Assembly (NCBI GenBank): GCA_947478755.1
Contig: CANJXH010000009.1
Location: forward strand, 1-35,432
DNA: 35,432 nt
Origin: Betaproteobacteria bacterium
GTDB lineage: Bacteria > Pseudomonadota > Gammaproteobacteria > Burkholderiales > Rhodocyclaceae
Reading direction: 5' to 3'
The notes below the pieces were generated by a model. It was not told the DNA's origin. It saw nothing but the letters and a program-made list of their open reading frames with translations, and did no database searches. Positions 8,794 through 26,381 of this stretch are shown piece by piece. Numbering within the stretch: position 1 is the stretch's first letter; each line of letters starts with the position of its first letter. The position numbers and the translations under genes were made by a program.

Positions 8794-8805
8794 GTTCTCT
8801 TTCCT

Positions 8806-10006: not shown

Positions 10007-10012
10007 ATTCAG

Positions 10013-10027
10013 CTGTCAGAATGACAG
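10013..10027. promoter_or_regulatory. palindrome, candidate TetR-family operator
   Basis: CTGTCA-GAA-TGACAG is a perfect inverted repeat with six-base arms and a three-base spacer, 73 bases upstream of the TetR start and 113 bases upstream of the divergent AveC-like start. TetR-family dimers typically bind such 15- to 20-base palindromes in their own divergent promoter. The position next to an AT-rich promoter-like patch supports a role as operator for both directions; binding is inferred. Confidence 0.5.
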
Positions 10028-10099
10028 ACCACGCCCACCGCAACAGGAGGCACTTACAGCAAATGCGGTGACGATCGGCGATCAGCGGCTTACGGAAAA

Positions 10100-10744
10100 A
10101 TGAGAAGAAAACCCAAACAACAGCGCTCGGAACAGACCGTCGACAAGATCAAGCAGGCCATGCGCGAGATCGTCCTCGAAAAATCCTATGCCGCTGCCAC
10201 CACCAACGAAATCGCAAGGCGCGCCGGCGCCAATATTTCGTCGCTTTATTTCTTCTTCCCGAATCGCGAAGCCATCGCGCAGGCAATTTTCGAGGAGACA
10301 TCACTCAAGATCGCCCAGGTCACGCATCGGCTGGTGTTGCAAAGCCTGACCAAGCCGTTGAAAGAAGGCATGACCGACATGGTGACGGAAATCATCAACG
10401 CACTAGATGAGGAGCAGGCGTTTCTGCAAAAACTGATTGAACAGGTACCCGACCTGCGCGAAACCGCCAACGCACTGGAACAGGAACGACTCGGGCGCCA
10501 CGTGGCGCGCCTCTATATCGAGCACCACCTGGGCAAGCAGGACGAAGAAGAAATAGCCTGCAAACTGTTCTTCGTCCAGCACCTGAGCTTCGACCTGATG
10601 CGCCGATATGTGGTCGAGCGGCCGGACAATATCTCACGCGACCGCTTCATCACCGAACTGTCATCGCTGGTCACCAGTTATCTCACGGCCCAGGGCACAC
10701 CTGCAGTGAAAAAGCCGCAACGCGCGGCACGCAGGCGCAGCTGA
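10100..10744 (+). CDS. TetR-family transcriptional regulator
   Basis: Regulator of 214 residues. The N-terminal helix-turn-helix spans about residues 12-60 (IKQAMREIVLEKSYAAATTNEIARRAG, then ISSLYFFFPNREAIAQAIFEE), typical of TetR. The rest is a helical ligand-binding and dimerisation domain, ending in a basic tail. The ribosome site is weak (GGA four bases before the ATG). It is divergent from the AveC-like/LLM operon and preceded by a 15-base palindrome, so it most likely represses that operon and itself until a ligand binds. It converges on the first DUF1214 gene with a gap of about 20 bases. Confidence 0.92.
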   Translation: MRRKPKQQRSEQTVDKIKQAMREIVLEKSYAAATTNEIARRAGANISSLYFFFPNREAIAQAIFEETSLKIAQVTHRLVLQSLTKPLKEGMTDMVTEIINALDEEQAFLQKLIEQVPDLRETANALEQERLGRHVARLYIEHHLGKQDEEEIACKLFFVQHLSFDLMRRYVVERPDNISRDRFITELSSLVTSYLTAQGTPAVKKPQRAARRRS

Positions 10745-10765
10745 TCCGCGCCGGGTTGGTGGGGA

Positions 10766-12028: not shown

Positions 12029-12045
12029 GTCATTTTCCTTGTTGA

Positions 12046-13242
12046 TCAACCCGCAAGCACGCGGGGAAAGCGTTTGATATAGCCGGCAAAGCGTTGGTGA
12101 ATCTTTTCCTTGCTGAGACCGAATCGCTCCATCGTGTAATCGTAGGTGCCGAAGTGGCTCTGCGGCCGGCGTGCCTCGTAGTCGGCGAAGGCCTTGCGTG
12201 CTGCCGGCGTCAACTCCCGGCCGGCGCGCGCATAGATCTGCGCGATGACGTCGATGCCATGGTCGCGGATGTCGTCGTAGTACACGTCGACGATGTGCGA
12301 CTCGCCATGCGTGGCACGGAAGGCGAGGTTGTTGTCGGTGGCCGCACCAAAGAACTCGTTGAAGTCGCTGCCAAGCTGAACCGTATCGGTATGCGAGCAG
12401 TAGATCTCGCGGTTGCATTCCAGCAAGGACGCAAAAGAGGTCACCGACTTGGCCGGATCGCGATGGCAGTGCACCACCGTGGCATCGGGAAATGCCAGCA
12501 GCAGGTTTTCGAATTCGCCGATGTGCGCCGGCGACTTGAGTATCCACGGCCTGCCCCTCGCGCCGCCATCCTGCCACTGCAGGTATTGCAGCATCTTGTA
12601 CACATGGGCATAGCTCGAACGCTGACCGTGCTTCTCGATGTAGGCGCGGTGCTTCGGCGCATGGGTCTTCATCGACGAAAAAGTGGACTGGAAGGTCATC
12701 TCCATGATGAACCACTCCTCATCCGGCTCCATTGCCTCCATCGCGTGGCGCGCCATCACCTTGGGAAAGTGCGTCGCCAGCAGCTGCTCGTATTGCAACG
12801 CAAGGCCAATGCGGGGGTCGGGCGTCATGCCCTCGCTGCCGGGCAATGGCGACGGGAAAAGGATGCGCCACACCTCCAGCCGTTGCACGCCCGGGTCGGC
12901 CGACATCATGCGCTGCAGCTTGGACGTACCCGTACGCGGCAGGCCGGTGATGATGATCGGCTTGACGATCGGGTCATCAAACATCTCGGGGTGTGCCTTG
13001 CTGTCGCGTACGAATACCAGCCGGTTCGACAGCAGGCGCACGATGTCCTGAAACGTCGCGCCGATGCCGGTCTCGCTGAGCCCGGCCGATTCACGCAGGT
13101 CTTCGAGCAATATCGTCAAGCCTTCGACAAAATTGCGCTCGCCGAAATCCTCAAGGCCCGTGGCCTGCACCGCAGCGACCATCAAGGTCTCGACATTCAG
13201 GCTGGCCATGGTCAAAGGGGATGCCGCGTTGAAATCAGTCAT
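12046..13242 (-). CDS. sulfotransferase-family protein
   Basis: PAPS-dependent sulfotransferase-like protein of 398 residues (Sulfotransfer_3 type). The 5'-phosphosulfate loop is TGLPRTGTSKL at residues 99-109 and the 3'-phosphate-binding region is CHRDPAKSVTS at 259-269; PWILKSPAH before it is also typical. Family members sulfate alcohols, sterols or glycans; many proteobacterial ones in catabolic clusters have no proven reaction. The ribosome site before the ATG at 13242 is modest (GGAAAG, about ten bases away). It follows a 39-residue membrane peptide gene by 46 bases and precedes DUF1214 copy A by 17 bases. Its substrate is probably a hydroxylated pathway compound (inference). Confidence 0.88.
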   Translation of the reverse strand: MTDFNAASPLTMASLNVETLMVAAVQATGLEDFGERNFVEGLTILLEDLRESAGLSETGIGATFQDIVRLLSNRLVFVRDSKAHPEMFDDPIVKPIIITGLPRTGTSKLQRMMSADPGVQRLEVWRILFPSPLPGSEGMTPDPRIGLALQYEQLLATHFPKVMARHAMEAMEPDEEWFIMEMTFQSTFSSMKTHAPKHRAYIEKHGQRSSYAHVYKMLQYLQWQDGGARGRPWILKSPAHIGEFENLLLAFPDATVVHCHRDPAKSVTSFASLLECNREIYCSHTDTVQLGSDFNEFFGAATDNNLAFRATHGESHIVDVYYDDIRDHGIDVIAQIYARAGRELTPAARKAFADYEARRPQSHFGTYDYTMERFGLSKEKIHQRFAGYIKRFPRVLAG

Positions 13243-13288
13243 TGCGCTTTGCTTTCCGTGATGGGTTCAGAAGGTGCGACCAGCCGTA

Positions 13289-13408
13289 TCAACGTGGCGC
13301 CGACTTTTTTCGGGTGCCGACAAGCAGGCAGGGATACCAGGCCCAGGCCACCGCCGCAATGGCGACCAGCGGCACCACCAGCACCGGCGAACGACGTTTG
13401 AAACGCAT
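13289..13408 (-). CDS. 39-residue single-span membrane peptide
   Basis: Short reading frame that starts MRFKRRSPVL and ends in a basic tail GTRKKSAPR. Residues about 9-30 form one hydrophobic segment rich in V, A, L and W, flanked by positive charges on both sides. The start codon has a strong GGGGAGGAG ribosome site with good spacing, the best in this neighbourhood. It is the first gene ahead of the sulfotransferase and DUF1214 copy A, 46 bases upstream. I recognise no family. The charge-flanked helix and the ribosome site argue that it is translated; it could be a small membrane anchor or partner protein. Confidence 0.55.
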   Translation of the reverse strand: MRFKRRSPVLVVPLVAIAAVAWAWYPCLLVGTRKKSAPR

Positions 13409-13436
13409 CAAGCTCCTCCCCTTTTTTATTGGGCCG

Positions 13437-13460
13437 TCAGGCCACTATTTTGATGCCTGA
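13437..13460. promoter_or_regulatory. inverted repeat upstream of the small membrane peptide operon
   Basis: TCAGGC at 13437-13442 and GCCTGA at 13455-13460 form an inverted repeat with a 12-base spacer, about 29 bases upstream of the 39-residue peptide start. It could be an operator over the operon promoter. No terminator-like T run follows on the minus strand. This 210-base gap (13409-13618) has no other gene. Confidence 0.3.
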
Positions 13461-13529
13461 TTTTAGCCGGCATCGGCCGCTTCGGACGCGATCACCATGC
13501 CGTGATTTGAGCATAAGGGCAGTGCCTTT

Positions 13530-13545
13530 TCCTGCAGCTGCAGGA
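13530..13545. repeat. perfect 16-base palindrome
   Basis: TCCTGCAGCTGCAGGA is fully self-complementary with no spacer. It lies between the end of the lipoprotein gene (13619) and the start of the small membrane peptide (13408), both on the minus strand. Without a loop or T run it is a poor terminator, so an operator is the likelier reading. Confidence 0.35.
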
Positions 13546-13618
13546 TGAAAGCTTGTTTACTTTTTCGTTGCCACAGCCCCTAGCGTGCTGAGGCCGAGAG
13601 GACGCCCACTTGAACTGA

Positions 13619-14143
13619 TCAATACCCCGGCGGTGGCGGCGGTGGCGGTGGAGATGTCGGCGTGCGTTGCTGTGCTTGCACGCCTTGCTGCTGCAGAGAG
13701 TCCCTGCCCGCCATCGAGGCCGGTACCGGCACGCGCTCGCCCTTGGCGTACATGCACTGGATGTAGGCATTGTCGTAACGCTGCTGGCTGCCATAGGCCG
13801 AGGCGTCGGCTGCGCCTGCGCCCGCCATGCTGCCCATGATCAGCCCGGTGCCTGCGCCCGCGCCGGCACCCTCATGCCCGCCGATCGCCGCGCCGGCCAC
13901 GGCACCGATGGCCGTGCCCACCGCCGCGCTGCGCACCGCCGCATTGTTGGCGGACTGGCTGGCTGACGCGCCGCCAATCTGCACCAGGGCATAGTCACGA
14001 CAACTCGCATCGTCGTAACGAAACTGGTCGAAGGTCTTGCTGGTGCCGGGCAAGGCCATCACGCTTGGCCCCGTGGGCACTGATGCACAACCTGCCAGCA
14101 CCAGCGCCCCCGCTGCTGCCACCCAAAGTTTCTGCCTGATCAT
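13619..14143 (-). CDS. glycine-zipper lipoprotein
   Basis: Probable lipoprotein of 174 residues. The lipobox LAGC puts the acylated cysteine at residue 19. The middle holds a glycine-zipper segment (GTAIGAVAGAAIGGHEGAGAG), as in proteins of the YMGG/SlyB-like group that insert in or span membranes. The C-terminus is a polyproline tail ending PPGY. Two ATGs are adjacent; the second (14143) is chosen because AAGGA sits about six bases before it and only three before the first. It follows the Gly/His-rich exported protein gene by 11 bases, so the two are one operon. Envelope maintenance is a general expectation for the family; a link to the metabolic cluster is unclear. Confidence 0.85.
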   Translation of the reverse strand: MIRQKLWVAAAGALVLAGCASVPTGPSVMALPGTSKTFDQFRYDDASCRDYALVQIGGASASQSANNAAVRSAAVGTAIGAVAGAAIGGHEGAGAGAGTGLIMGSMAGAGAADASAYGSQQRYDNAYIQCMYAKGERVPVPASMAGRDSLQQQGVQAQQRTPTSPPPPPPPPGY

Positions 14144-14154
14144 CATGGTTCCTT

Positions 14155-14574
14155 TCACGGCCCGGGCGGCGTCGGCGAAACCTGCTGCCAGCCGCTCGGG
14201 CATTGGCTCACATAAGGGTAATAGCGCTTCGACGCCGGGCAGTAATACCAATAGCTGCTCGCCTGCGGTGCGGCCGGCGCCGGTGCCATCTGAGGTTGCT
14301 CGATATACACCTGCGGTTGCGGTTGCACGATCACCGCGGGCGGGTAGTAATACGGTTGCGGCGGGTAATACCAGCCCGGCCCCCACCAGGGACCAACACT
14401 GAAATCGAGAAAGATGCGGCTGCGAGCGTGTCCTTCATAATGCCCGCCACCGCCGTAGTGACCGCCACCACCATGGTGACCTTGGCCGCCGCCGTGTCCA
14501 CCTTCGGCCCATGTCGTGCCGACCATTGCCGACACCAAAAAAACGGATGCAATACACGCTTTGAGAATTTTCAT
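14155..14574 (-). CDS. Gly/His-rich exported protein with C-terminal YYCP motif
   Basis: Secreted or envelope protein of 139 residues. It has a signal peptide (about residues 1-23, ending TTWA), then a low-complexity region of GGH and GGGGHY repeats, a Tyr/Pro-rich middle, and a C-terminal block SYWYYCPASKRYYPYVSQCPSGWQQV. The C-terminal block, with two cysteines probably joined by a disulfide, recurs in short proteobacterial envelope proteins of unknown function. The His/Gly region could bind metal (inference). The ATG at 14574 has GGAG about seven bases upstream. First gene of a two-gene operon with the glycine-zipper lipoprotein. Confidence 0.8.
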   Translation of the reverse strand: MKILKACIASVFLVSAMVGTTWAEGGHGGGQGHHGGGGHYGGGGHYEGHARSRIFLDFSVGPWWGPGWYYPPQPYYYPPAVIVQPQPQVYIEQPQMAPAPAAPQASSYWYYCPASKRYYPYVSQCPSGWQQVSPTPPGP

Positions 14575-14704
14575 GATTCGACTCCAAAGGTCCCAAGAGG
14601 GATTAACGTCTTTGTAGCCGATTCGTTACCCGACGATGCGGGGTGTTTTGTAAGCGCGTGTTGCAGCCATCCCCGCTATAACGGGGGATGCCAAGACAGC
14701 AGTG

Positions 14705-15976
14705 TTACCAGCGCTTTCTTAATTGCGCACCGGCACGGCGTTCGCGCAGGCTGGCGTCGCGCTGGGCTGGCGTAACCACGGGCGTGTCGGCCGGCAGATA
14801 CTTGCGCACGTCGACAAGCTTTACCTTCGTTACCGTTGGCGTCGGCTGGCTGTCGCATTGCAGCCAGCGGCCGAACAACGAACCCTGCGCGTAGCCGGCG
14901 TTGTCCAGCCAGTTGGGCACGCCAGGGTCGCTGGCCGACACCACGGCGCGGAAATTGCCATCCTTGTCGATGCGGGCGGTGTAGCCGTTGAGATTGCTCT
15001 GGCGATTGGTGTAATCCACCGTGTTCCACAGGCTGTCGTTGGTGACGATGTTCCAGTAGCGGCAGTGCTTCGGTACCTGCGTCTCGTAGATCAGGGCTTC
15101 ATCTGCGGCAATGTCGATCAGGCCCTCGACGTAATACTGCTTGGTCGTGAAGCCGCCCTGTGCCGAAAGATCACGCACCACCACCTTGTTGATCAGGCCG
15201 TCCGCGGTGTAGCTCGTCAGCCGACCGGTGGGTATGCGCGTCCAGTTGTCTGCGGCGATGGAAATTCGGCGCAACGCATCGGCAATCTCTTCCGGCGTCA
15301 TGCGCGGCTTGACTGCCGGCGTATCCAGGCGCTGGATGCCGAAGCGGCCATCCACCTCTTTCAGCCAGTTGTAGGCGATCTGCCGCACCATGACATATTG
15401 CGTGCGTTGGTCCATCTTCCACCAGTCACCCTTGTACCCGGCGGGGCGCTCGCTGCTGAGCAGCACCGAGAAACTGCCATCCTTGCCGAGATGCAGACTG
15501 TCGACATCGTAGTTGGCGAAGGTCGGCATCATGCCGCCCTGTCCGTGCGGATAAAAATCGCCACTGCCGATCTGGAAATCGATCAGGCGCACCGTGCCGC
15601 GGTAGCCGGATATTTTGTATGTGCCCTTGCCATCCAGCGGCGCGACGTAATAGGTATCGTCCGGATTGGCCGAACCGATGCTGTAGGCCTGGTTGAATAG
15701 CGGCCAAAAATCCGGATGCGCCGCATCACCGACGAAATACGCCATGTAGGCCATCGATAGCGTCTTGAACAACTGCTGGTAAAGCTCCTGCCGTTGCTGC
15801 GGATCGTCCGGGTTGGACATCAGCGACGTCGCCTTGCCAGCCAGCGGCAACAGCGGCTCGACATAACTGCGCCATTCGCGATCAATGGTCGCGGCGGTGT
15901 CGGGCGAGACATCGGCGAATGCGGTGGCGCTGTTGAGCAGACAGGCCAGCGCCAAAATGGAAATCGACTGTTTCAT
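14705..15976 (-). CDS. exported DUF1214-domain protein (copy B)
   Basis: Paralogue (423 residues) of the protein at 10766-12028. It has a signal peptide ending ATAFA before DVS. The two share ERPAGYKGDWWK in the middle, PK-C-YWN, and near the C-terminus FRAV-SA-DPGVPNW-DN-G followed by GRW--C and PADTP-V-P-QRD. The start at 15976 is set by the signal peptide and a GAGGAG eight bases upstream. It is divergent from the CrtC/AttH-like gene at 16199 with a 222-base gap. The reaction is unknown; two exported copies in one cluster suggest a periplasmic step or a binding role. Confidence 0.88.
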   Translation of the reverse strand: MKQSISILALACLLNSATAFADVSPDTAATIDREWRSYVEPLLPLAGKATSLMSNPDDPQQRQELYQQLFKTLSMAYMAYFVGDAAHPDFWPLFNQAYSIGSANPDDTYYVAPLDGKGTYKISGYRGTVRLIDFQIGSGDFYPHGQGGMMPTFANYDVDSLHLGKDGSFSVLLSSERPAGYKGDWWKMDQRTQYVMVRQIAYNWLKEVDGRFGIQRLDTPAVKPRMTPEEIADALRRISIAADNWTRIPTGRLTSYTADGLINKVVVRDLSAQGGFTTKQYYVEGLIDIAADEALIYETQVPKHCRYWNIVTNDSLWNTVDYTNRQSNLNGYTARIDKDGNFRAVVSASDPGVPNWLDNAGYAQGSLFGRWLQCDSQPTPTVTKVKLVDVRKYLPADTPVVTPAQRDASLRERRAGAQLRKRW

Positions 15977-16198
15977 AGCATTTCTCCTCGTATTTTTCTG
16001 AACGCAATATTTCAATCTACCACCGACCGGACCACCGGGCGCAGGTACATCGCTTACCGTTATGGTGCGGCGGCCAGGGTGCCAACAAAAACATTTCTGC
16101 ATCGGCATCTTGTCGCCGCCATTCGTCGCCGTGCTATCTTTCACCCCCCGGCGCAGCAGCGCTGCATTTACCTACAACAAGCAATCAAGGAGAAAACC
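15977..16198. promoter_or_regulatory. divergent intergenic region, promoters expected
   Basis: This 222-base gap separates DUF1214 copy B (minus) from the CrtC/AttH-like gene (plus) and must hold both promoters. The last bases before each gene are clear ribosome sites. I find no strong palindrome and no convincing -35/-10 pair; a TTGTCG to TATCTT pair on the plus strand has a 19-base spacer and is weak. Confidence 0.4.
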
Positions 16199-17176
16199 AT
16201 GGATATCATTGGCGGCGGCAAGATGCATGTTTACCCATCTTCGGATGAATACCCCCAAGAGAAGGGCGATCACGAGCACTTGCAGGAAAGCTATGTGCTC
16301 CACTTTTTCGACCGGGCGCAGGGCTGCGGCGGCTACTTCCGCATCGGCCATGAACCCAACTGCAACGGCGGTACCATCGCGCTGTGGAGCAACATCGTCA
16401 CGCCCGAAGGATTTTTCCATCGCGCGGACGACGTGAAGATCGCTCCCGGCGACATCACCAAGAACGGCTTCTCCGCCGACAAGGGTGCACTGGCCTACCA
16501 CTGGGATGGCAAGCAGATCACCTGGACGGTGAAGGAAAAGGACATCACTGCCAACCTGAAGCTGGAAGATTTCCACCCTGCAGTCGACGGCTACAAGCGC
16601 GACGGCAAGGTGGGCGACTATGCAGCAGCCCACGTTGAAGTGGCACTGCGCGTGACCGGCACGATCACCTCCCACGGCAAGACCTATCAGGTCGATGGCC
16701 TCGGCATCCGCGACCACGGCTGGGGCGTGCGCCACTGGAATGCCATGCTGTCGCACCGCTGGACGGTGGCGACCTTCGACAAGGACAACTCCTTCTGCGC
16801 AGTGGCGATGCATCTGAGCAGCGACGTGATCGCCAAATTCGGCTGGGTGATTCGCGGCGACAAGGTGATCTTTGCCGACAAGGTCGACATCCTCGCCAAA
16901 ATGGAAGTGGACGGCACCACCAACCGTGGCGGCACGACGACCATGACGCTCAGCACCGGCGAGATCTACACCGCGCACTTCACCCCGGTCACGCCATGCA
17001 TCAACTCATGGATCCACGGCACCGACTGCGTCGACAATTTTTCGCAGGTCACCTGGGGTGACAAGATCGGCGTCGGCTGCTTCGAGACCTCGAACAACAT
17101 GCACGCCGGCACCCGCCGTCCGCAAGTGTTCGATGGCGCCCTCTCGGCCAGCGGTTGGTACCCGACCAAGAAGTGA
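16199..17176 (+). CDS. CrtC/AttH-like (DUF7064/7065-type) protein
   Basis: Cytoplasmic protein of 325 residues with no signal peptide. The segment GLGIRDHGWGVRHWN in the second half resembles the conserved RDHSWG-R motif of the lipocalin-like AttH/CrtC (hydroxyneurosporene synthase-like) group, some members of which hydrate isoprenoid double bonds. The N-terminal ESYVLHFFDRAQGCGGYFRIGHEPN segment also fits. This assignment is from memory and moderate. The ATG at 16199 has an ideal AAGGAG seven bases upstream. It is a single-gene unit that ends 16 bases before a terminator. Being divergent from DUF1214 copy B, it probably belongs to the same pathway. Confidence 0.7.
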   Translation: MDIIGGGKMHVYPSSDEYPQEKGDHEHLQESYVLHFFDRAQGCGGYFRIGHEPNCNGGTIALWSNIVTPEGFFHRADDVKIAPGDITKNGFSADKGALAYHWDGKQITWTVKEKDITANLKLEDFHPAVDGYKRDGKVGDYAAAHVEVALRVTGTITSHGKTYQVDGLGIRDHGWGVRHWNAMLSHRWTVATFDKDNSFCAVAMHLSSDVIAKFGWVIRGDKVIFADKVDILAKMEVDGTTNRGGTTTMTLSTGEIYTAHFTPVTPCINSWIHGTDCVDNFSQVTWGDKIGVGCFETSNNMHAGTRRPQVFDGALSASGWYPTKK

Positions 17177-17192
17177 TTGCGATTGGTGGCAA

Positions 17193-17221
17193 AAAAAAGC
17201 CCGCGCGATGCGGGCTTTTTT
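17193..17221 (+). terminator. Rho-independent terminator after the CrtC/AttH-like gene
   Basis: Stem GCCCGC / GCGGGC with loop GCGAT, flanked by six A on the left and six T on the right, so it can work in both directions. It starts 16 bases after the stop codon. It is nearly identical in core and loop to the terminator at 17911-17953 on the other side of the toxin-antitoxin pair. Confidence 0.9.
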
Positions 17222-17292
17222 GTTATTCGCCAGTAAAAAACCAGAATCGGGGAATTGATCAATGTAATCCCATGCTATACACTGCGGACAGT

Positions 17293-17571
17293 ATGATCAA
17301 AACATTCCAGCACAAGGGCCTGAAGGTCTTTTTCGAGTCCGGCAGCAAGGCAGGTATACAGCCACATCACGCTTCCCGACTGGGGCGGCAGCTGATACGG
17401 TTGGACCTGGCCAAGTCAGCGGCGGACATGAATGTGCCGGGATGGAACATGCACTCTCTGACAGGTTCACTCGCTGGTCACTATTCAGTAACGGTAAATG
17501 GCAACTGGCGGATGACCTTCATGTTTGAAGGTGAAGATGCCGTACTGGTCGACTATCAGGACTATCACTGA
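17293..17571 (+). CDS. higB: type II toxin, HigB/RelE-family mRNA interferase
   Basis: Toxin of 92 residues, the usual size for HigB. It matches the family along its whole length: MIKTFQHKGLKVFFESGSK, the R-G-L-L-L region, then DMNVPGWNMHSLTGSLAGHYSVTVNGNWRMTF and the C-terminal DYQDYH. HigB cuts translated mRNA on the ribosome. An upstream in-frame extension exists, but the ATG at 17293 matches the family start. Toxin first, antitoxin second is the usual higBA order. TATACA at 17275-17280 is a possible -10, with an ATAC/GTAT near-palindrome around it that could be the autorepressor site (weak). Confidence 0.9.
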   Translation: MIKTFQHKGLKVFFESGSKAGIQPHHASRLGRQLIRLDLAKSAADMNVPGWNMHSLTGSLAGHYSVTVNGNWRMTFMFEGEDAVLVDYQDYH

Positions 17572-17583
17572 AAGGAATTGAAA

Positions 17584-17901
17584 ATGAGTCGAATGCATAA
17601 CCCACCGCACCCTGGCGAAACCTTGCGCGAAGACGTGTTGCCGGCACTGGGATTGAGCGTAACTGATGCAGCCGACCAGCTTGGCGTGACGCGCGCTGCA
17701 TTGTCACGCGTGCTGAATGGACGTGCGGCGATATCCCCACAGATGGCGTTGCGGCTAGAGGGCTGGCTGGGTGTGAAGAACGGTGGACGCGCCGATCTGT
17801 GGATTGCGCAACAGGCGGCTTACGACTTGTCCAAGGCGCGAAAAATCGGCATCCCAAAGGTTAAACGCGCAAAGATGGATGGGCTGAAGCTGGCTGCATG
17901 A
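17584..17901 (+). CDS. higA: HigA-type antitoxin, XRE-family DNA-binding protein
   Basis: Antitoxin of 105 residues that should bind HigB and repress the shared promoter. It begins with the family signature MSRMHNPPHPGETLREDVLPALG, followed by a Cro/XRE helix-turn-helix (SVTDAADQLGVTRAALSRVLNGRAAIS) and a short C-terminal part. The ATG at 17584 has AAAGGA seven bases upstream; a TTG two codons earlier is not favoured. It lies 12 bases after the toxin stop and ends just before a long terminator. Confidence 0.93.
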   Translation: MSRMHNPPHPGETLREDVLPALGLSVTDAADQLGVTRAALSRVLNGRAAISPQMALRLEGWLGVKNGGRADLWIAQQAAYDLSKARKIGIPKVKRAKMDGLKLAA

Positions 17902-17910
17902 CAACATGCG

Positions 17911-17953
17911 CCCCAACAAAAAAGCCCGCGTGATGCGGGCTTTTTTGTTGGGG
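17911..17953. terminator. bidirectional terminator between higA and aldehyde dehydrogenase
   Basis: Perfect 19-base stem CCCCAACAAAAAAGCCCGC, five-base loop GTGAT, and its complement to 17953. It lies 9 bases after the higA stop and 10 bases before the stop of the convergent aldehyde dehydrogenase gene, so it serves both. The T6 run lies within the stem, as is common for bidirectional terminators. Confidence 0.93.
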
Positions 17954-17963
17954 CGGACGCAGC

Positions 17964-19397
17964 CTATAACTTCAAGGCCTTGCGCATCGCATTGGCGAGG
18001 CCCGCGCCGTAGGGCGGCGCAATGTACTTGGTGACGTCGAACCACGGCCGCACCGCATAGCCCTTGCCGTTGGACATGGTCTTGAAACCGTCGTAGGCCA
18101 GATAGCGGCCCATGCCGCTTTCGCCAACGCCACCGAAGGGCACATCCTGCATGAAGGGGTGGAGCATCACGTCATTGAAGCTGATGCCGCCGGCGTAGGT
18201 GTTCTTGAGGATGAAGTCGCGATCCGCCTCGCTGCCGCCAATGAAATACATGGCGAGCGGACGAGAGAGCTTGGCCAGCACCTTCGCCGCGCCCTGAAGC
18301 GTGTCGTAGCTCACCACGGGAATGATGGGGCCGAAGATTTCCTCGTGCATCAGCGCGGCATCGAGCGGCGGGTTGATCACCAGCACCGGCGGGAAGGGGT
18401 CACGCGTGGCGAGCTGGTCAATGGGCGTACCGTCGAGCACTTCGACCTGTGCCCCACGCTGCGCGGCATCGGCCACCAGATGCGCAAGCCGGCTGCGCTG
18501 CCGGTCGAGATGCACGTGGGTGAAGTCCGGTCCCTGCGCGTATTGCGGGTGCATGCGCTGCAAGGCCGCCTTCACCTCGCCGACAAAGGCATCGGTGTCG
18601 CTGGCCTGCACATAGGCAAAGTCGGGCGCCATGCACACCTGTCCGGCATTGGTGGTCTTGCCGTTGATGAACTTGGCAGCGGCGTACTTGAGGTCAGCCC
18701 CCTTGACGACGATGCAGGGCGACTTGCCGCCGAGTTCCAGCGTCACCGGCACCAGATTTTCGGCCGCCGCGCGCAGCACATGGCGCGCGGTACCGGCGCC
18801 GCCGGTGAACACGAGGTGGTCGAAAGGCACTGCGGTAAATGCCTGCGAGACCTCAATGCCGCCGGTGACGACATCGACTTCATCTTCGTTGAAGGCTTCG
18901 CGCACCATGGCGGCAATCAGATCGGCCGTCTGCGGCACCAGCTCGGATGGCTTCAAGAAGGCGCGGTTGCCGGCCGCGAGGATGCTGCCCAGCGGGCTGA
19001 AGGCCAGCGCGACAGGCGCATTCCACGGCGACACCTTGCCCACCACGCCCAGCGGCTGATGGAAAACGCCGGCACGGCCGCCGATCAGGCCCATGGGGAA
19101 CTCGGGCTTGCGCTTTTCCGGACGCATCCAGCGCTCGACATGCTTCAGCGAATACTTGAGCGTGCGCACCGGCGCCATCACGTCAACCAGCAGGTTGATC
19201 GGCTCGGGGCGACCGGCAAAGTCCGCATTGATGGTGTCGGAGATGCGCTTTTCGTTTTTGATCAGCACATCCACTGCGCGACGCAGGCGGTCGATGCGCA
19301 CCGCAGCCGTCGGATAGGGATCGTTCTCGTGCGCTGCACGCAGGCGCGCGAGGCGGGCAAGCAGATCGGCACGGACGTCGGGGGCGGGGGAATTCAT
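17964..19397 (-). CDS. aldehyde dehydrogenase, coniferyl-aldehyde-dehydrogenase-like
   Basis: NAD(P)-dependent aldehyde dehydrogenase of 477 residues that oxidises an aldehyde to the acid. Catalytic Cys255 lies in TTNAGQVCMAPDF, general base Glu221 in LELGGKSP, the oxyanion Asn126 in SPWNAP, and Lys149 in KPSE. The N-AGQ-C-APD form and the C-terminal NDVMLHPFMQDVPFGGVGESGMG are typical of the coniferyl/class-3-like aldehyde dehydrogenases. The ATG at 19397 has AAAGGAG at good spacing. It ends at the shared terminator with higA. Its role may be oxidation of an aldehyde made by the upstream oxygenases, but it may also be unrelated. Confidence 0.93.
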   Translation of the reverse strand: MNSPAPDVRADLLARLARLRAAHENDPYPTAAVRIDRLRRAVDVLIKNEKRISDTINADFAGRPEPINLLVDVMAPVRTLKYSLKHVERWMRPEKRKPEFPMGLIGGRAGVFHQPLGVVGKVSPWNAPVALAFSPLGSILAAGNRAFLKPSELVPQTADLIAAMVREAFNEDEVDVVTGGIEVSQAFTAVPFDHLVFTGGAGTARHVLRAAAENLVPVTLELGGKSPCIVVKGADLKYAAAKFINGKTTNAGQVCMAPDFAYVQASDTDAFVGEVKAALQRMHPQYAQGPDFTHVHLDRQRSRLAHLVADAAQRGAQVEVLDGTPIDQLATRDPFPPVLVINPPLDAALMHEEIFGPIIPVVSYDTLQGAAKVLAKLSRPLAMYFIGGSEADRDFILKNTYAGGISFNDVMLHPFMQDVPFGGVGESGMGRYLAYDGFKTMSNGKGYAVRPWFDVTKYIAPPYGAGLANAMRKALKL

Positions 19398-19487
19398 GTC
19401 AGCTCCTTTATTCTTGATTCGCTGTTTTGCCGCAACGGGACAGCAAGGCAATGCGCGGCCTGGTGAGTGGATGCACGGATTTTACCG

Positions 19488-19509
19488 GGTCAGCGCCGCC
19501 GCGCTGACC
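19488..19509 (-). terminator. hairpin between cytochrome c and aldehyde dehydrogenase genes
   Basis: GGTCAGCGC, four-base loop, GCGCTGACC: a perfect nine-base stem, 81 bases past the cytochrome c stop on the minus strand. No T run follows, so termination is uncertain; it could also be a structured leader or an operator upstream of the aldehyde dehydrogenase. Confidence 0.4.
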
Positions 19510-19590
19510 ACGTGTTCGGCAGCCACAATATGTCGCGACCGGCGCTACCTCAGGAGCAGACAGGTAACGGGCAGCACCGGCATGAAACAG

Positions 19591-19923
19591 CTACTTCGTG
19601 GCGAGTATCCACTGCACCAGCATCATCGCTTCCACCTCGGCAAGCTCGACGCGGGCGCTGCTGGGCGGCATCTTGGTGGCCCCCCAGTGCACCGTGGCAC
19701 CGCTGCTGCCCTTCATCACCACCTCCTGCAACATGGTCTGGGCGTTGTTGAGCCCACGAAAGCGATTGGCGATGTTCTTGAACGATGGGCCGACCATGTC
19801 CTTGTCGACCGAGTGGCAACTGAGGCACTGCTTCTGTTTCGCCATGTCGAGCATGCCGTCGGCGTGGGCCGGCGCGATGAAGGCGATGGAGAGAAAGGAA
19901 ACTGTCGCGATGATTTTTTTCAT
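19591..19923 (-). CDS. class I c-type cytochrome (c551-like), periplasmic
   Basis: Electron carrier of 110 residues. Signal peptide MKKIIATVSFLSIAFIAPAHA is cut before DG. The heme site is CLSCH at residues 33-37 and the axial methionine is Met85 in WGATKMPPS, the pattern of small monoheme cytochromes c551/c552. The ATG at 19923 has AGAGGAG about seven bases upstream. It is transcribed alone or together with the downstream aldehyde dehydrogenase (193-base gap). It is divergent from the kinase-like gene at 20074. Confidence 0.93.
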   Translation of the reverse strand: MKKIIATVSFLSIAFIAPAHADGMLDMAKQKQCLSCHSVDKDMVGPSFKNIANRFRGLNNAQTMLQEVVMKGSSGATVHWGATKMPPSSARVELAEVEAMMLVQWILATK

Positions 19924-20073
19924 GGTGTGACTCCTCTTTGTCGATAGGCAAGACGCCAGACTTCACCCTACGACGACCGTCCAGCCGCACCTTGATGCAG
20001 GTCAAGCGTTTGGCAGCAAGCCGGTTCCGCAGGTAGGATGCGAATTCCCCCTCGCGACAAAGACGGACTGACC

Positions 20074-21420
20074 ATGAGCCAACAAAACACCACCATCATC
20101 GGCGCCACCCCCGAGACCGTGCGCAGCTATCTGCTGGTGCTGGCCGAAGCGCTGAAAGGCACGGTGATGCCCCGGCTCGACGGCCATGCCCACTCGATCG
20201 CCGACGAGTGCGCGATGATCGCCACACGGCTGGCGCAGCAGATCAGCGGTGACCCGGCGGCAAAGGCGCTGCTGGCGATGGTGGCGACCAATGGCGCGGA
20301 CGATACCAACGATACCAACGCCGGTCGGCTTCGCGACGTGAGCGCGGAACGGCGTGCCTTTGACCTGGTCGAGACCGAGGCCAAGGCGCTGTTCGGTGAA
20401 GGCCTGCACAACGAACCGGCGCGCGCATTCGATCGGCAACGATTCGAGAACTACCTGCAACAGCATCCGCTGGGCGGGCGCGACACCTGCATCGTCGAGA
20501 CCACCATGCTCTCGGGCGGACGCTCGAAAACGACGACGCTGATCACTCAGGAAGGCGCCCGCGATCTGCCGCGCCAGTTTGTGCTGCGCCAGGACGGCAC
20601 CGGTGCCCAGCAGGAATTCACCAAAGAGCTGGTGCGTCCGATAGCGCTGGAATACCAGATCATGGCCTTCGCCCACGCCAACGGCATCAAGGCCCCGCGC
20701 ACGCTGTTGCTGGAGGCCTCGACCGAGCCGATGGGCGGCGCCTTCATGGCGATCGAGCGTTGCGCCGGCAGTGCTGCGGGCGACATGTTCAAGCCGCTGA
20801 AGTCCGACCGTTACGCGCTGGAGCTGGCGGCACAACTGGGCCAATTGCACAGCCGACCGGTGGACAGCCTTGCCGCCACGGTACCGATGCGCAGCAGCAC
20901 CGAAGCGCAACTGAGCCGGGAACTCGCCGGCATGCGCGAGGTGCATCAGCAGATGGGCACACCGAGCCGTACCGTCGATATCGCGCTCGACTGGATGCAG
21001 GAGAACATCGCCAAGGTGCAAGGCCCGCTGAGCCTGGTGCATGGCGACATGGCCTACAACAACACCATGGCCGAGAACGGCCATCTGGTGGCCTTCCTCG
21101 ACTGGGAACTGTCTCACCTCGGCAACGCGGCGAAGGATCTCGGCTTCGTCCGGACCAGTATCGAGCAGGTGCTGCCGTGGCCGCAATTCATGGCCGCTTA
21201 CGAGGCCGCAGGTGGACCGGTCTTTTCACCACTCACCATCGACTTCTACACCCTGTGGGGCCAGATGTGGCTGTACTCGATCACCCAGCAGTCCCGCGTC
21301 GGCGTGGTCAAGCATGGCCTGAAGGACATCGAGCTGGTGCACTACTGCGCGCACTTCGGGCCGGTGATCATGCAACGCATGGCGCGCACGCTGGAGGCAG
21401 TGCTGGGCAAGCCCGCCTGA
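20074..21420 (+). CDS. phosphotransferase-family protein (aminoglycoside-phosphotransferase/choline-kinase fold)
   Basis: Protein of 448 residues. About 130 N-terminal residues of helical sequence precede a kinase-like domain. The catalytic loop is HGDMAYNN with His323-Gly-Asp325, and the metal-binding Asp343 is in FLDWELSHLG, the usual Brenner-type pattern of APH kinases. Members next to lipid and acyl-CoA genes resemble the ACAD10/11 kinase domain, which phosphorylates hydroxyacyl-CoA compounds; here the substrate is unknown and antibiotic resistance is unlikely from the context. The ATG at 20074 is the family-like start with only a weak ribosome site. It is divergent from the cytochrome c gene. 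Confidence 0.88.
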   Translation: MSQQNTTIIGATPETVRSYLLVLAEALKGTVMPRLDGHAHSIADECAMIATRLAQQISGDPAAKALLAMVATNGADDTNDTNAGRLRDVSAERRAFDLVETEAKALFGEGLHNEPARAFDRQRFENYLQQHPLGGRDTCIVETTMLSGGRSKTTTLITQEGARDLPRQFVLRQDGTGAQQEFTKELVRPIALEYQIMAFAHANGIKAPRTLLLEASTEPMGGAFMAIERCAGSAAGDMFKPLKSDRYALELAAQLGQLHSRPVDSLAATVPMRSSTEAQLSRELAGMREVHQQMGTPSRTVDIALDWMQENIAKVQGPLSLVHGDMAYNNTMAENGHLVAFLDWELSHLGNAAKDLGFVRTSIEQVLPWPQFMAAYEAAGGPVFSPLTIDFYTLWGQMWLYSITQQSRVGVVKHGLKDIELVHYCAHFGPVIMQRMARTLEAVLGKPA

Positions 21421-21501
21421 GCTGCGCAGATACGCCGAAAGCATCGAAAAAGGCAGGCTTTTGGCGCGTGGCCGGCGTTCCGGCGATGCAGTGCCTGTGC
21501 C

Positions 21502-21522
21502 TATAATTGTGGCAACAATTAT
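21502..21522 (+). promoter_or_regulatory. -10 element overlapped by a 20-base palindrome
   Basis: TATAAT at 21502-21507 is a perfect -10 hexamer. It overlaps the palindrome ATAATTGTGGCAACAATTAT at 21503-21522 (eight-base arms, four-base spacer). The -35 region is poor (TTCCGG-like), as in activated or tightly regulated promoters. A transcript would start near 21514, about 120 bases before the LTA-synthase-like gene. The rest of the 215-base gap shows nothing else clear. Confidence 0.5.
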
Positions 21523-21635
21523 TCGACGCACCCTACCCCGGAAATTCAGCACATGGCAGGACCAAGGCACAGGCGCGGCTTCATGCCGCATGACGCACTC
21601 GCCGGTTTTTTTCGGTCGCTGCACAAGGTAAGCAC

Positions 21636-23726
21636 ATGAGCATGTTCCGCAGTTCTCCTGGCAAACCTGCCATCAACCTGCTCACGCTGACACCCGCCTT
21701 CCTGTTGTCCAGCGCGCTGCTGCTGGCAGGTTTCCGGGCCGCCTTCCTGTGGCGTTACGCCGATGCCGCCAGCCTTGCCGGCATGGGGCAAGATATTGTC
21801 CATGCCTTTGTCCTCGGCCTGCGTTTTGACCTCAAGGTCGCCTGTGTCGCCACCCTGCTGTGGCTGATACCGCTGGCGCTGCTGCAAGGGCTGCTGTCGC
21901 GCCACCCCGCGCGTGCCGCCACCATTGCGCGCTGGCGTGATGCCGGTCTGCTGTTCTGGTTGTGCGTGCAGGCGCTGCTGTCGGTGGTGCAGCATTACTA
22001 CTTCGGCTTTTACCAGACGCCCTTCACGCCCATGGTCTTCGGCCTCGCCGACGACGACACCGTCAACGTGCTGCGCACCGTCTGGCAGGACTACCCGGTA
22101 CTGCGCGCCCTGCTCGGCGTCGCCCTGCTCGGTTGGCTGGGCAACTGGCTGACGCACCGGCTGGCCGCCCGCATCAGCAGGGTGTGGCCACCCTCGGGCT
22201 GGTCGCGCGGCTGGCGCCGAGGCCTGCTCAATACGCTGTTGGCGATCATCGTCGTGCTGCTCGCGCGCGGCTCGCTGGCGACTTTCCCGCTGAACAAGGA
22301 AGCGTCCTGGTTCTCGCTCAACCCGATGCTCAACAATGCCGCGCGCAATGCCCCGCAGACGCTGTATGACGCCTGGCGCTCGCGACAGGATGATTCGACC
22401 AAAATCGAGCGCGCCGACGAAGGGCTCAAAGCCCACGGCTTTGACAACGTCTTCGATGCCGCGACCGCCGCCGCCGGGCATCCCGTGCATAGCATCGAAG
22501 CAGTCGAAAACCTGTTCTGGCGCACGTCACCTGCCAGCAACAGCAACGCCCGTCCGCATGTCGTATTTGTTTTGATGGAGTCCTGGAGCGGCTACATGCT
22601 GAGCTTTGACGACCCCGACAAGACCGATCTGCTGGGCCGCCTGCGGCCGCTGACCAAAAGCGACTACTGGTTCCACAACTTCCTGCCCTCGCAGGGCGGC
22701 ACCCATGCCTCGATGGAAGCGCTGCTGTTCAATACGCCCATCACGCCGCTGACGCTGGGCGCCTATCGCAAGATACCCTTTGACACCAACATCACCTGGC
22801 CTTTCCGCCAGGCCGGATACGACACCGTGCTGGTGACCGGTGGCAGCGCACTGTGGCGCGACCTGCGTGATGCCATGCGCTACCAGGGTTTCGACAAGAT
22901 CTACGACAAGGCCGACATCAGCGCACGCTACCGCGAAGCACGATCAAACGACTGGGGTGTGCCGGACGAATATCTGTTCCGCTACGCCCACGACCTCCTG
23001 CAACAGGCTGATCGCGAGGGCCGTCACCTGTTGCTGATCGTGCAGACCACCACCAACCACCCACCCTTCCAGTTGCCGCCGGAACGTCGCGTGCCGCTCG
23101 ACACGACACAGCTTCGCGCCATCTCACGCCTGCCGCCCGAGACCGTGGACAATGTCGCGCAGACCTATCGATATTCAAGCGACCAGCTGGCTGGCTTCGT
23201 CGGCGAGATCAAGTCCGGCACACTGGCGGACCACACGCTGATCGGTGCCGCCGGCGACCACAACATGCGTTATTTCTTCGGCTTCAAGCGGCCGCGCGAT
23301 TCTTACATCGCAGACTTTGTCGCCAGCTACATGTACCTGCCGCCGGCCATGCGCCCGGCGCGCGGTCTCGACATGGACGCCTTTTATTCACACCAGGATT
23401 TCTTCCCCACCTTCATGGCGCTGGCACTGCCGCCGGGCATCCGCTATTTTGCCGGCGGCGAAAACATGCTCGCGCCGCAACGCACGCAGGACTCTGCCTA
23501 CTGCTGGTATTCAGGCTTGTATGCGCGCGAAGGCTATGTCAGCGGCAAAGCCAAAAATCCGGCCGCGTTTACCTGGCAAGCGGGGCGCCTGCTGGCACCG
23601 GCCGCAACCGCGACACCTGTGTTGATGGAAAAATTCCGCCGTGCCGATGCACGTCTGGCATTGCAGGACTGGTGGATTCGCCGCCGCGCACTGGGGCAGC
23701 AAGACGCGCAAGCGACGAAACACTGA
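21636..23726 (+). CDS. LTA synthase-like membrane sulfatase-fold phosphotransferase
   Basis: Membrane enzyme of 696 residues. The first ~220 residues hold about five membrane segments (near 13-36, 55-85, 103-125, 155-175, 198-215). The rest is an extracytoplasmic sulfatase/alkaline-phosphatase-fold domain. Metal and catalytic residues visible are Glu315 in VVFVLMESWSGY, the likely nucleophile Thr356 in SQGGTHASMEAL, DH in GAAGDHNMRYF and the YSHQDFFPTF segment. Relatives transfer phosphoglycerol or phosphoethanolamine to glycans or lipids. In a Gram-negative this probably decorates a periplasmic glucan or lipid A (inference). The ATG at 21636 has AAGG seven bases upstream. Confidence 0.9.
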   Translation: MSMFRSSPGKPAINLLTLTPAFLLSSALLLAGFRAAFLWRYADAASLAGMGQDIVHAFVLGLRFDLKVACVATLLWLIPLALLQGLLSRHPARAATIARWRDAGLLFWLCVQALLSVVQHYYFGFYQTPFTPMVFGLADDDTVNVLRTVWQDYPVLRALLGVALLGWLGNWLTHRLAARISRVWPPSGWSRGWRRGLLNTLLAIIVVLLARGSLATFPLNKEASWFSLNPMLNNAARNAPQTLYDAWRSRQDDSTKIERADEGLKAHGFDNVFDAATAAAGHPVHSIEAVENLFWRTSPASNSNARPHVVFVLMESWSGYMLSFDDPDKTDLLGRLRPLTKSDYWFHNFLPSQGGTHASMEALLFNTPITPLTLGAYRKIPFDTNITWPFRQAGYDTVLVTGGSALWRDLRDAMRYQGFDKIYDKADISARYREARSNDWGVPDEYLFRYAHDLLQQADREGRHLLLIVQTTTNHPPFQLPPERRVPLDTTQLRAISRLPPETVDNVAQTYRYSSDQLAGFVGEIKSGTLADHTLIGAAGDHNMRYFFGFKRPRDSYIADFVASYMYLPPAMRPARGLDMDAFYSHQDFFPTFMALALPPGIRYFAGGENMLAPQRTQDSAYCWYSGLYAREGYVSGKAKNPAAFTWQAGRLLAPAATATPVLMEKFRRADARLALQDWWIRRRALGQQDAQATKH

Positions 23727-23748
23727 AGTAAGCCTACTAAAGCAAGGC

Positions 23749-23783
23749 AAGCACCACAATGCATTGCCTGCATTGCGGTGCTT
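23749..23783. terminator. hairpin between convergent genes
   Basis: Fifteen-base stem (AAGCACC-A-CAATGCA against TGCATTG-C-GGTGCTT) with loop TTGCC, between the LTA-synthase-like stop (23726) and the convergent FkbM stop (23801). The single mismatch becomes a G-U pair in the minus-strand RNA, so it is best suited to the FkbM transcript. There is no T run, so it is a probable rather than certain terminator. Confidence 0.55.
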
Positions 23784-23800
23784 GATCAGTTCGCTGCCAA

Positions 23801-24463
23801 TCAGCTCGCGGCGACAGCGCCTTCCTTGGCGACATCCTGCCAGACGGCGTTGAAGCGGCCCTCGTTATTGTTCTCGATGAAGATGAAGGGCTTGAACCGC
23901 GCGATCAACTGCCTTGCGCCGCGCAAGACCTGGGACTCGAATCCTTCGGCATCGATTTTCAGCAGATCCAGCCGACCAATGTCCGCGATGGGCGGATGCT
24001 GGTCCAGCGCCAGCACCCTGACCTTTTCGGTATTGACGGCGCCGGCGTATTTCATCTCGGCATTGAATCCCGCAGTCAGCGAGAACGCGCCGTAGTTCCA
24101 GGGCTGGTCGTAATTGCCGGTCTGGATATCGACCATTGCCTCGGCATCGCCAACACCGCATTGGCTGGCAAAGACATTCAGCCGGCCGTTCAATGCGAGG
24201 TTCGCGCACAGCACCTGAAAGATGATGCGCTGCGGCTCGAAGCAGAACAGCTTGCCGTCCTTGCAGATCTGGCTGAGGGGCACGGCGTGCATGCCGATAT
24301 TCGAGCCGACCTCGATGGCCACGCCGTCGGCCGGCAGAAGCTGCTTGAAAAGCTCGACCTCGCCCTCGCACCACTCGCCATAGAGATTCACGTACTCGCT
24401 GATCAGGTCACCATGAATCAACAGGAACTGGCCCCAGCGGCATTGCTTCAGGTAGGTATTCAT
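23801..24463 (-). CDS. FkbM-family SAM-dependent methyltransferase, short
   Basis: Methyltransferase of 220 residues (Methyltransf_21 domain). The SAM-binding motif I is EVGSNIGMH at residues 51-59, the acidic strand is FCFEP, and the family signature KIDAEGFE at 169-176 is followed by VLRGARQLIARFKPFIFIEN. It usually O-methylates sugars or natural products. The protein ends about 23 residues after the last domain strand, without the 40-60 residue tail containing a YNP-like segment that many relatives have, so it may be a short form. There is no clear ribosome site before the ATG at 24463. Confidence 0.85.
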   Translation of the reverse strand: MNTYLKQCRWGQFLLIHGDLISEYVNLYGEWCEGEVELFKQLLPADGVAIEVGSNIGMHAVPLSQICKDGKLFCFEPQRIIFQVLCANLALNGRLNVFASQCGVGDAEAMVDIQTGNYDQPWNYGAFSLTAGFNAEMKYAGAVNTEKVRVLALDQHPPIADIGRLDLLKIDAEGFESQVLRGARQLIARFKPFIFIENNNEGRFNAVWQDVAKEGAVAAS

Positions 24464-24584
24464 CGGTTGGCGTGACGGTGTCAGAAATCAAGGCAACCCG
24501 GATGGTACACGGTACACATTTCGTCCGGAAAATCGGACTCATGTCTTACTTCCAACCGGGTGGCGTAGTCACGCAGAAATAAAA

Positions 24585-24697
24585 ATGGCCCGCATTGCTG
24601 TGGGCCGTATTTGCCATTTTTGGCGTGATCGTGGAATTCAACCCTCGCCCGGGCGAATCAGGAAAGCTCGCGCCAATTGCGTTACCAAGCGCTTGTG
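24585..24697 (-). pseudogene. candidate decayed tRNA copy with its terminator
   Basis: A hairpin at 24585-24608 differs at only two positions from the tRNA-Met terminator at 25036-25059 over 24 bases. Next to it, at the same order and nearly the same distance, lie GTGAT and then AACCCTCG (24640-24647), matching the T-arm and acceptor of the intact tRNA (25089-25096). TGG at 24621 would be the encoded CCA and GTTACCAAGC near 24681 resembles a D-arm. The T-stem is broken, so it cannot be functional. It may be an old gene duplication or a scar of an integrated element. The D-arm part is weak. Confidence 0.4.
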
Positions 24698-24698
24698 G

Positions 24699-24932
24699 TC
24701 AGATGTTCCCCGTCGACATGGCCGTCATCTGGATCGCCATCGGAAATGTAAATGTCGCTGTGGCAACGCCCATGAGATTTCCATACAGGGTGGAACGGCG
24801 ACGATTCACGCGTTGAAGATTCACTGCTTCAATGGTGTAGTGGCGGACGCAAACCGACAAGGTGGAGATCATCACCACAATGACCAACAGCGGGCGCGGC
24901 GCCACCAGATGCAACAGAATACTGATATCCAT
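24699..24932 (-). CDS. small hydrophobic protein, doubtful
   Basis: A 77-residue frame in the only large gap of the window (24464-25067). It has two hydrophobic stretches, about residues 4-30 and 53-72, separated by a basic segment with RRRS. No family is recognised and there is no ribosome site before the ATG, so it may be a chance frame. It is listed because it is not the shadow of another gene and lies between the tRNA remnant and the intact tRNA. Nothing else coding is visible in this gap. Confidence 0.25.
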   Translation of the reverse strand: MDISILLHLVAPRPLLVIVVMISTLSVCVRHYTIEAVNLQRVNRRRSTLYGNLMGVATATFTFPMAIQMTAMSTGNI

Positions 24933-25035
24933 GATTGAACGGTATTCAATGAAGTTGTTGAAGTGGGAATATATCCCATTTTTTGAGCGCTGTTATCAAA
25001 TTCGATGAAAATCGAAATTCCGGCCGGAAACAAAA

Positions 25036-25059
25036 ACGGCCCACATCGCTGTGGGCCGT
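25036..25059 (-). terminator. Rho-independent terminator of tRNA-Met
   Basis: Ten-base stem ACGGCCCACA / TGTGGGCCGT with a four-base loop, followed on the minus strand by TTTTG. It begins 8 bases after the encoded CCA end of the tRNA. A near copy stands at 24585-24608. Confidence 0.92.
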
Positions 25060-25067
25060 TCGTGTTT

Positions 25068-25144
25068 TGGTGGTGATGGGGGGACTTGAACCCTCGACCT
25101 ACGGATTATGAATCCGTCGCTCTAACCAGCTGAGCTACATCACC
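25068..25144 (-). tRNA. tRNA-Met (anticodon CAT)
   Basis: A 77-base gene with a full cloverleaf: acceptor GGTGATG pairing CATCACC, D-arm AGCTCAGCTGGTTAGAGC, anticodon stem ACGGA / TCCGT around loop TTCATAA (anticodon CAT), T-arm GAGGGTTCAAGTCCCCC, discriminator A and encoded CCA. The D-arm form is that of elongator tRNA-Met; it lacks the initiator features (unpaired first base, three G-C pairs in the anticodon stem). A lysidine-modified tRNA-Ile with CAT is a less likely alternative. Confidence 0.96.
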
Positions 25145-25223
25145 GCAACCTTCAAAAGGGGGCGAATTATCGTTGCCGGGGGTTTGCCTTGTCAAGGAAT
25201 ACCCGGTAGGTGACAATCGACCC

Positions 25224-26381
25224 ATGAAAGCAGATGTATTGATCATTGGCGGCGGTTTGGCGGGTCTGGCGCTGGCTGTTGCCTTGCGCAGCTCGCAACG
25301 CTCGGTGGTGCTGGTCGAGGGGCGGGCACCGACACGGCCGGCGGAGTGGGATGCGCGCATTTATGCGGTGAGCCCGGCCAACCAGGTGTTTCTGGAGTCG
25401 ATCGGGGCCTGGCAGCATATGGATGCGCCGCGCCTGACGGCGGTGGAGGCAATGGAGATCCACGGTGACGCGCAGGGGCGGGTCGATTTCTCGGCCTACG
25501 ATTCGGGCCTGAATGCGCTGGCGTGGATTGTGGAATCGTCGGCGATGCAATGCGAACTGTGGGAATCGGCCAAGCGCCAGGGCAACCTGACCCTGCTCTG
25601 CCCGGCCCAGCCGCAGACACTGGAACGTACTGAGACCAGATCGGTGCTGACCCTGGCCGACAGCAACACGATCGAGGCCGAATTGGTGGTGGCAGCAGAT
25701 GGGGCCGAATCCTGGACCCGCTCCGCGTCCGGCATCCATGTCAATTTCCACGCCTACGACCAGCTTGGCGTGGTGGCAAATTTCAGTTGCGAAAAGCCGC
25801 ATCGCGGCACCGCCTTCCAGTGGTTTCGCGAGGACGGCGTGCTGGCCTGGCTGCCGTTGCCGGGCAACAAGGTGTCGATGGTGTGGTCGACCCATGAAAC
25901 CAATGCCATCGAATTGCAGGCACTGAACGCCGAGGCGTTGTGCGCAAAGGTGGCGCAGGCAGGCAACCATCGCCTGGGCGGGTTTTCGCTGCTGACGCCG
26001 GCGATCGGCTTCCCCTTGCGGCTGATGCGGGCCCCTTCGTGCATCGCGCCACGGCTGGCGCTGATCGGTGACGCCGCGCACACGATCCACCCGCTGTCGG
26101 GCCACGGCATCAACCTCGGATTCCAGGATGCAAAGGCGCTGGCGGAACTGTTGCGCGACAAGCCGGACCATCTTGACTGTGGCGACTACAGTTTGTTGCG
26201 GCGCTATGAACGCAGCCGCAAACAGGATGTCATAGCCTTGCAGACCGCCACCCACGGCCTGCATCGCCTGTTCTCGCCCGGTTGGCGCCCACTCTCAAAA
26301 ATTCGCAATGCCGGCTTGAATTTCACAAATTCTTTACCTGTTGTAAAAGACGCGCTGGTGCGTTACGCCATTGCTTCCTGA
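25224..26381 (+). CDS. UbiH/UbiF/VisC/COQ6-family FAD-dependent hydroxylase
   Basis: Flavoprotein monooxygenase of 385 residues, of the family that hydroxylates the ring of ubiquinone precursors. The N-terminal Rossmann motif is IGGGLAGLALAVAL, the mid motif AADGAESWTR, and the second FAD motif GDAAHTIHPLSGHGINLGFQDA begins at Gly282. The start at 25224 fits the motif position; the ribosome site is distant and weak. It is followed after 46 bases by a DsbC-type gene, an arrangement I associate with betaproteobacteria. Which carbon of the quinone ring it modifies cannot be decided from sequence. Confidence 0.92.
   Translation: MKADVLIIGGGLAGLALAVALRSSQRSVVLVEGRAPTRPAEWDARIYAVSPANQVFLESIGAWQHMDAPRLTAVEAMEIHGDAQGRVDFSAYDSGLNALAWIVESSAMQCELWESAKRQGNLTLLCPAQPQTLERTETRSVLTLADSNTIEAELVVAADGAESWTRSASGIHVNFHAYDQLGVVANFSCEKPHRGTAFQWFREDGVLAWLPLPGNKVSMVWSTHETNAIELQALNAEALCAKVAQAGNHRLGGFSLLTPAIGFPLRLMRAPSCIAPRLALIGDAAHTIHPLSGHGINLGFQDAKALAELLRDKPDHLDCGDYSLLRRYERSRKQDVIALQTATHGLHRLFSPGWRPLSKIRNAGLNFTNSLPVVKDALVRYAIAS

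Follow-up and report, generated by a model that had tools for sequence, protein, structure and literature searches.

Positions 24576–24651 of the window, the whole 35,432-nucleotide stretch of Rhodocyclaceae DNA analysed here, probably represent a displaced attachment end, left behind when an old integrative element that had inserted into the 3' half of an elongator tRNA-Met gene was mostly deleted. A terminator copy and the worn tail of a tRNA gene lie side by side there, downstream of the intact tRNA-Met and on the same strand, and the same tRNA gene carries elements with displaced 3' fragments in related genomes.

The tRNA-Met gene and its partial repeat

The intact elongator tRNA-Met (CAT anticodon, CCA encoded; 25068–25144, minus strand; Rfam RF00005, 73.1 bits) is the sole tRNA detected by ARAGORN in the window and stands at one end of the putative element. 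It is followed by a spacer and intrinsic terminator (25027–25067, minus strand; stem at 25034–25061, 12 pairs, fold energy −26.5 kcal/mol) and preceded by a predicted sigma-70-like promoter (TTGACA-18-GATAAT, 25166–25195, minus strand; consensus match only). A divergently oriented FAD monooxygenase gene (25224–26381, plus strand), here named UbiH-like from its sequence and context, is a neighbour of tRNA-Met that is conserved in relatives. Beyond the displaced copy lies a gene for an FkbM-type methyltransferase (23801–24463, minus strand; Pfam PF05050), in a region non-syntenic with G001, which alone among the other genomes surveyed belongs to the genus of the window.

The displaced terminator copy (24576–24608, minus strand) is a direct repeat of 25027–25059, identical at 29 of 33 positions with a spacing of 451, and its mismatches weaken the hairpin. 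The original prediction had counted two differences in 24 positions, which is slightly generous: there are 2 in 22 counted from 24587, 3 in 24 and 4 in 33. It had also named, as an observation that would tell against a copy, the same hairpin following many unrelated tRNAs. A search of its own genome with the terminator core, allowing one mismatch, returned these two places and no others (the next best match has two mismatches). The AGCGAT loop type is also found after other tRNAs in the family, including a second tRNA-Met of the same genome, so that the terminator by itself is insufficient evidence. Among all surveyed loci, the best match of the distal terminator is the window's own proximal terminator (46 against at most 37 elsewhere), so the tail of the lost element, if there was one, would derive from a close lineage; otherwise the repeat formed on the spot with no element involved. 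In our reading of the sequences, most differences between the two appear to be departures of the distal copy from the family consensus. The displaced terminator has no obvious present function; possibly it stops read-through.

The probable copy of the tRNA 3' end is decayed and spans CCA, the 3' strand of the acceptor stem and the T-arm (24618–24651, minus strand). It adjoins the terminator copy in register, shares the strand of the tRNA and lies on its 3' side. The alignment has 27 identities in 38 columns; in tRNA orientation the copy reads CGAGGGTTGAATTCCACGATCACGCCAAAA against CGAGGGTTCAAGTCCCCCCATCACCACCAAAA in the gene, tRNA order and strand being kept with a few one-base gaps. Of the two shared words pointed out originally, GTGAT (24625–24629 and 25073–25077) and AACCCTCG (24640–24647 and 25089–25096), the order is right and the spacing is slightly off, their starts being 15 bases apart in the copy and 16 in the gene. 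The repeat is real: none of 5000 dinucleotide shuffles attained the alignment score of linker and 3' half. Only 0.02% of shuffles attained the local score for the tRNA alone, as did 5 of 1692 windows taken from other parts of the contig. A covariance model of T-arm, 3' end and terminator, built from relatives only, gave 93.4 bits for the tRNA itself and 27.5 for the copy (E 5e-6 in 35 kb); the latter score is mostly due to the terminator, since terminator-like matches without a tRNA elsewhere reach 20–31 bits. With a T-arm-only sequence profile from relatives, the copy (5.6 bits, E 0.74) was the fifth-best match over 35 kb and is therefore significant only through its predicted place and strand; limited to some 40 positions of a single strand, the value is by our estimate roughly 4e-4. 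The low-cut-off tRNA search suggested earlier was carried out, and Rfam at a relaxed E-value recognised no tRNA at the displaced copy. The putative displaced tRNA 3' fragment, in the orientation of the gene, is a worn T-arm/CCA match, significant by its expected place and weak when taken alone. The terminator copy is solid and the copy of the tRNA tail probable.

No similarity to the 5' half of the tRNA was found at the copy (p 0.62 and 0.71 under two scoring schemes), and the whole-tRNA similarity expected of a tandem tRNA duplication or pseudogene is absent. Simulated full-length copies with 20–30% substitution scored this low in 0–1.5% of cases (about 0.25% for a full copy at 25% divergence), and duplication of a 451-bp unit was undetectable (p 0.39). 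With neither the 5' half nor such a unit detectable, the repeat comprises the 3' end and terminator, which is the segment duplicated by tRNA-targeting elements.

The intervening segment (24652–25026), presumed to be the remnant of the lost element, holds no recognisable gene; GC content is 0.50 over 24609–25026 (the segment plus the spacer of the relic) compared with 0.61 for the window. Two small frames between the copies (117 aa, plus strand; 77 aa, minus strand) gave no family matches and have weak or atypical third-position GC, and were therefore not counted as genes. The interval of about 420 bp showed no homology to phages, plasmids or the island proteins of relatives; a single match of 29 residues proved to be fortuitous, an unrelated gene having been read by chance. 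Because no integrase peptide was found in 24470–25070, the locus is called a scar and not an element. A search of the window's genome for an integrase of the G001 type returned two weak matches only, and the one inspected (C35) was XerC-like. Just beyond the proximal terminator and inside the presumed remnant, the stretch 25003–25031 contains a palindrome of 12 bp (TTCCGGCCGGAA) as well as a small hairpin (TTCGATTTTCATCGAA).

The tRNA-Met locus in related genomes

The protein scan matched Rhodocyclaceae and other betaproteobacteria; the genome of the window belongs to the same family as the surveyed genomes, for which the named matches are Rhodocyclaceae. About 80 loci downstream of tRNA-Met were examined in relatives, as had been proposed; many end at contig ends, so all counts are lower bounds. 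Islands at this tRNA were found, and a tandem double tRNA-Met was absent from all relatives surveyed. The tRNA-Met of relatives usually adjoins ubiH; in G029, G030 and G032 (L040, L041 and L042) it faces ubiH, inverted relative to the window.

A displaced tRNA-Met fragment was present in at least six genomes (G002, G015, G019, G030, G093 and G124). The six fragments run from tRNA nucleotide 30–31, in the anticodon arm, to the 3' end, and lie 1.4–10.3 kb away, every one of them downstream of the tRNA and oriented like it. Elements of relatives end in the 3' fragment and, in most, the host terminator, with a geometry like that of the window, and some are similarly worn. An integrase or part of one lies inside the interval in G001, G019, G030, G093 and G124, and in others (e.g., G009, G107, G113 and G084) an integrase adjoins the tRNA with no fragment in range. 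Across Rhodocyclaceae, elements recurrently integrate at the elongator tRNA-Met next to ubiH. Among the papers searched, none united tRNA-Met, genomic island, integrase and Rhodocyclaceae, so this hotspot may be undescribed, though as a concept it is not new. In G147 (L179, 6790–6866 and 8329–8373), a different tRNA-CAT gene has a 3' fragment 1.5 kb downstream (100% identity, from nucleotide 33); more than one tRNA-CAT gene is thus targeted.

Empty and occupied sites could be compared within two genera. In genus g89, the tRNA of G172 is followed directly by terminator and flank, and in G089 a 2.4-kb insert separates tRNA and terminator, the displaced end consisting of a 15-nt tail of the tRNA, followed by the host terminator and near-identical host flank. 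This pair is direct proof of the displacement mechanism at this tRNA gene. The insert encodes a DUF6538-domain protein whose PHROG matches have no assigned function and which we infer to be an integrase. In genus g65, G158 is empty; in G065 an integrase adjoins the tRNA, and tail and terminator are displaced by 5.1 kb, the 15-nt tail having one base deleted. According to the Islander work (PMC4383910), some tDNA fragments have a small deletion located 3 bp before the discriminator.

Two genomes of one genus, G002 and G140 (L037, 1395–2546; L151, 8206–9390), share a small element with a Fic gene that reaches from tRNA-Met to a displaced terminator. The host-like terminator beside the tRNA lies within 198 aligned positions that are nearly identical between both, and from this shared flank we take it to be probably the element's own; elements that bring a host-like terminator with them would explain the two terminators of the window. 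At the displaced end, the tRNA tail is retained in G002, and the terminator alone is left in G140. The layout of the window would fit a decay series that leads from a full 3' half through a worn tail to a terminator only. In G093 (L156, 1575–1841), a remnant element of 1.4 kb retains no more than the last 89 residues of an integrase next to the tRNA.

G001 has a 5.4-kb island between tRNA-Met and a worn 33-nt 3' fragment with terminator; it encodes a tyrosine integrase (PF00589 with PF12167), a rolling-circle Rep and an FtsK/HerA-like P-loop ATPase, and nadE lies beyond its far side. The window and G001 are syntenic on the side of ubiH, as far as the tRNA, where synteny is lost; because the window's far-side flank does not match that of G001, the two genomes yield no empty-site comparison for the window genome. 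The far-side gene was also considered as a marker of the ancestral junction and set aside, nadE being on small separate contigs in the window's genome and the left side of the window being non-syntenic with G001.

Probable origin of the repeat

Under the explanation preferred here, the element would have carried its own copy of the tRNA 3' end, and a tyrosine integrase would have recombined this copy with the tRNA-Met gene. The gene would have been rebuilt with the tail of the element, and the original 3' half and terminator pushed to its far end, two steps that are shown for relatives and presumed for the window. The displaced tRNA piece, no longer under selection, would then have lost its pairing through substitutions and small deletions, and almost the whole element would have been deleted, leaving about 0.4 kb. 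The lost element, its identity and the time of its loss are inferred. The original prediction had offered either the scar of a lost element or an old tandem tRNA duplication; the former gains support from the real elements with displaced 3' fragments at this tRNA in relatives and, as tRNA-Met is used there repeatedly as a landing site, would make the repeat an ordinary scar at a busy site. Against it stand the lack of an integrase, a mobile gene and a phage or plasmid match between the copies, and a T-arm match that is weak alone.

The same lack of a mobile gene would suit a local partial duplication, in which slippage or unequal exchange doubled a segment with the tRNA 3' end and its terminator, one copy decayed afterwards and no mobile element was involved; the lineage-specific stem arms common to both terminators and the departure of the distal one from the family consensus also agree with such an event. 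We nevertheless regard it as unlikely, given the undetectable 451-bp tandem unit, the missing tRNA 5' half and the common occurrence in relatives of element-borne duplication of exactly this segment at this gene. The tandem duplication considered originally, that is, a decayed second whole tRNA-Met with its own terminator, is disfavoured and in our view very improbable: T-arm, CCA and terminator are correctly ordered and a marginal alignment can be extended into the anticodon arm, yet the 5' half is at chance level (p 0.6–0.7), simulated full copies rarely score so low, and a tandem pair of this tRNA occurs in none of the relatives surveyed. That an independent terminator of a common family type lies next to a chance resemblance to a T-arm would agree with the AGCGAT-loop terminators of similar shape after several tRNAs in the family, with the E of 0.74 for the T-arm-only match in 35 kb and with the absence of a tRNA hit in Rfam. 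It is made quite improbable by an in-register alignment that beats 5000 of 5000 shuffles and by stem arms that specifically match the tRNA-Met terminator of this genome, in which no more than these two places match at one mismatch or fewer.

Relation to known islands

Like tDNA islands of the Islander class (PMC4383910), the window has a tRNA gene, a putative downstream 3' fragment in the same orientation and material in between, and the break in the anticodon arm seen in relatives equals the anticodon-centred attP sublocation 'A' of that work (PMC4383910). It differs from this class in its interval of 0.42 kb, which is below the 2-kb length filter of Islander (PMC4383910), in having no integrase and in a fragment too worn for a plain BLASTN match. 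The proposed scar is of a known kind, a further example of a tRNA gene serving as a landing site, and is so far decayed that it would be lost to the filters of standard island finders. In practice, strains can be checked at tRNA-Met/ubiH for mobile elements, which carry small cargo such as a Fic gene there, and displaced terminators may mark older events once the tRNA fragment is unreadable. A more speculative suggestion, which we hold tentatively, is that the tRNA-Met elements of this family carry a host-type terminator, so that the rebuilt tRNA stays terminated, and that displaced terminators are fossils which persist longer than the tRNA tail, so that earlier integrations at a site could be counted from them.

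Among the elements of relatives, that of G002 and G140 shares with the window two host-like terminators, one by the tRNA and one displaced; it measures about 1.3–1.4 kb and has a recognisable Fic gene, whereas the interval of the window has no recognisable gene. The G001 island occupies the same tRNA on the same side and likewise ends in a worn displaced 3' end and terminator; unlike the window, it is 5.4 kb long, has apparently intact genes and a different far-side flank, and its tRNA-proximal terminator is non-host-like and presumably that of the element. To the left of the tRNA, a large stretch of the window (5000–24560) is without a syntenic counterpart in G001; it contains many stretches with paralogues elsewhere in its own genome and encodes a sulfatase, an APH-type phosphotransferase, an aldehyde dehydrogenase and a TetR regulator.
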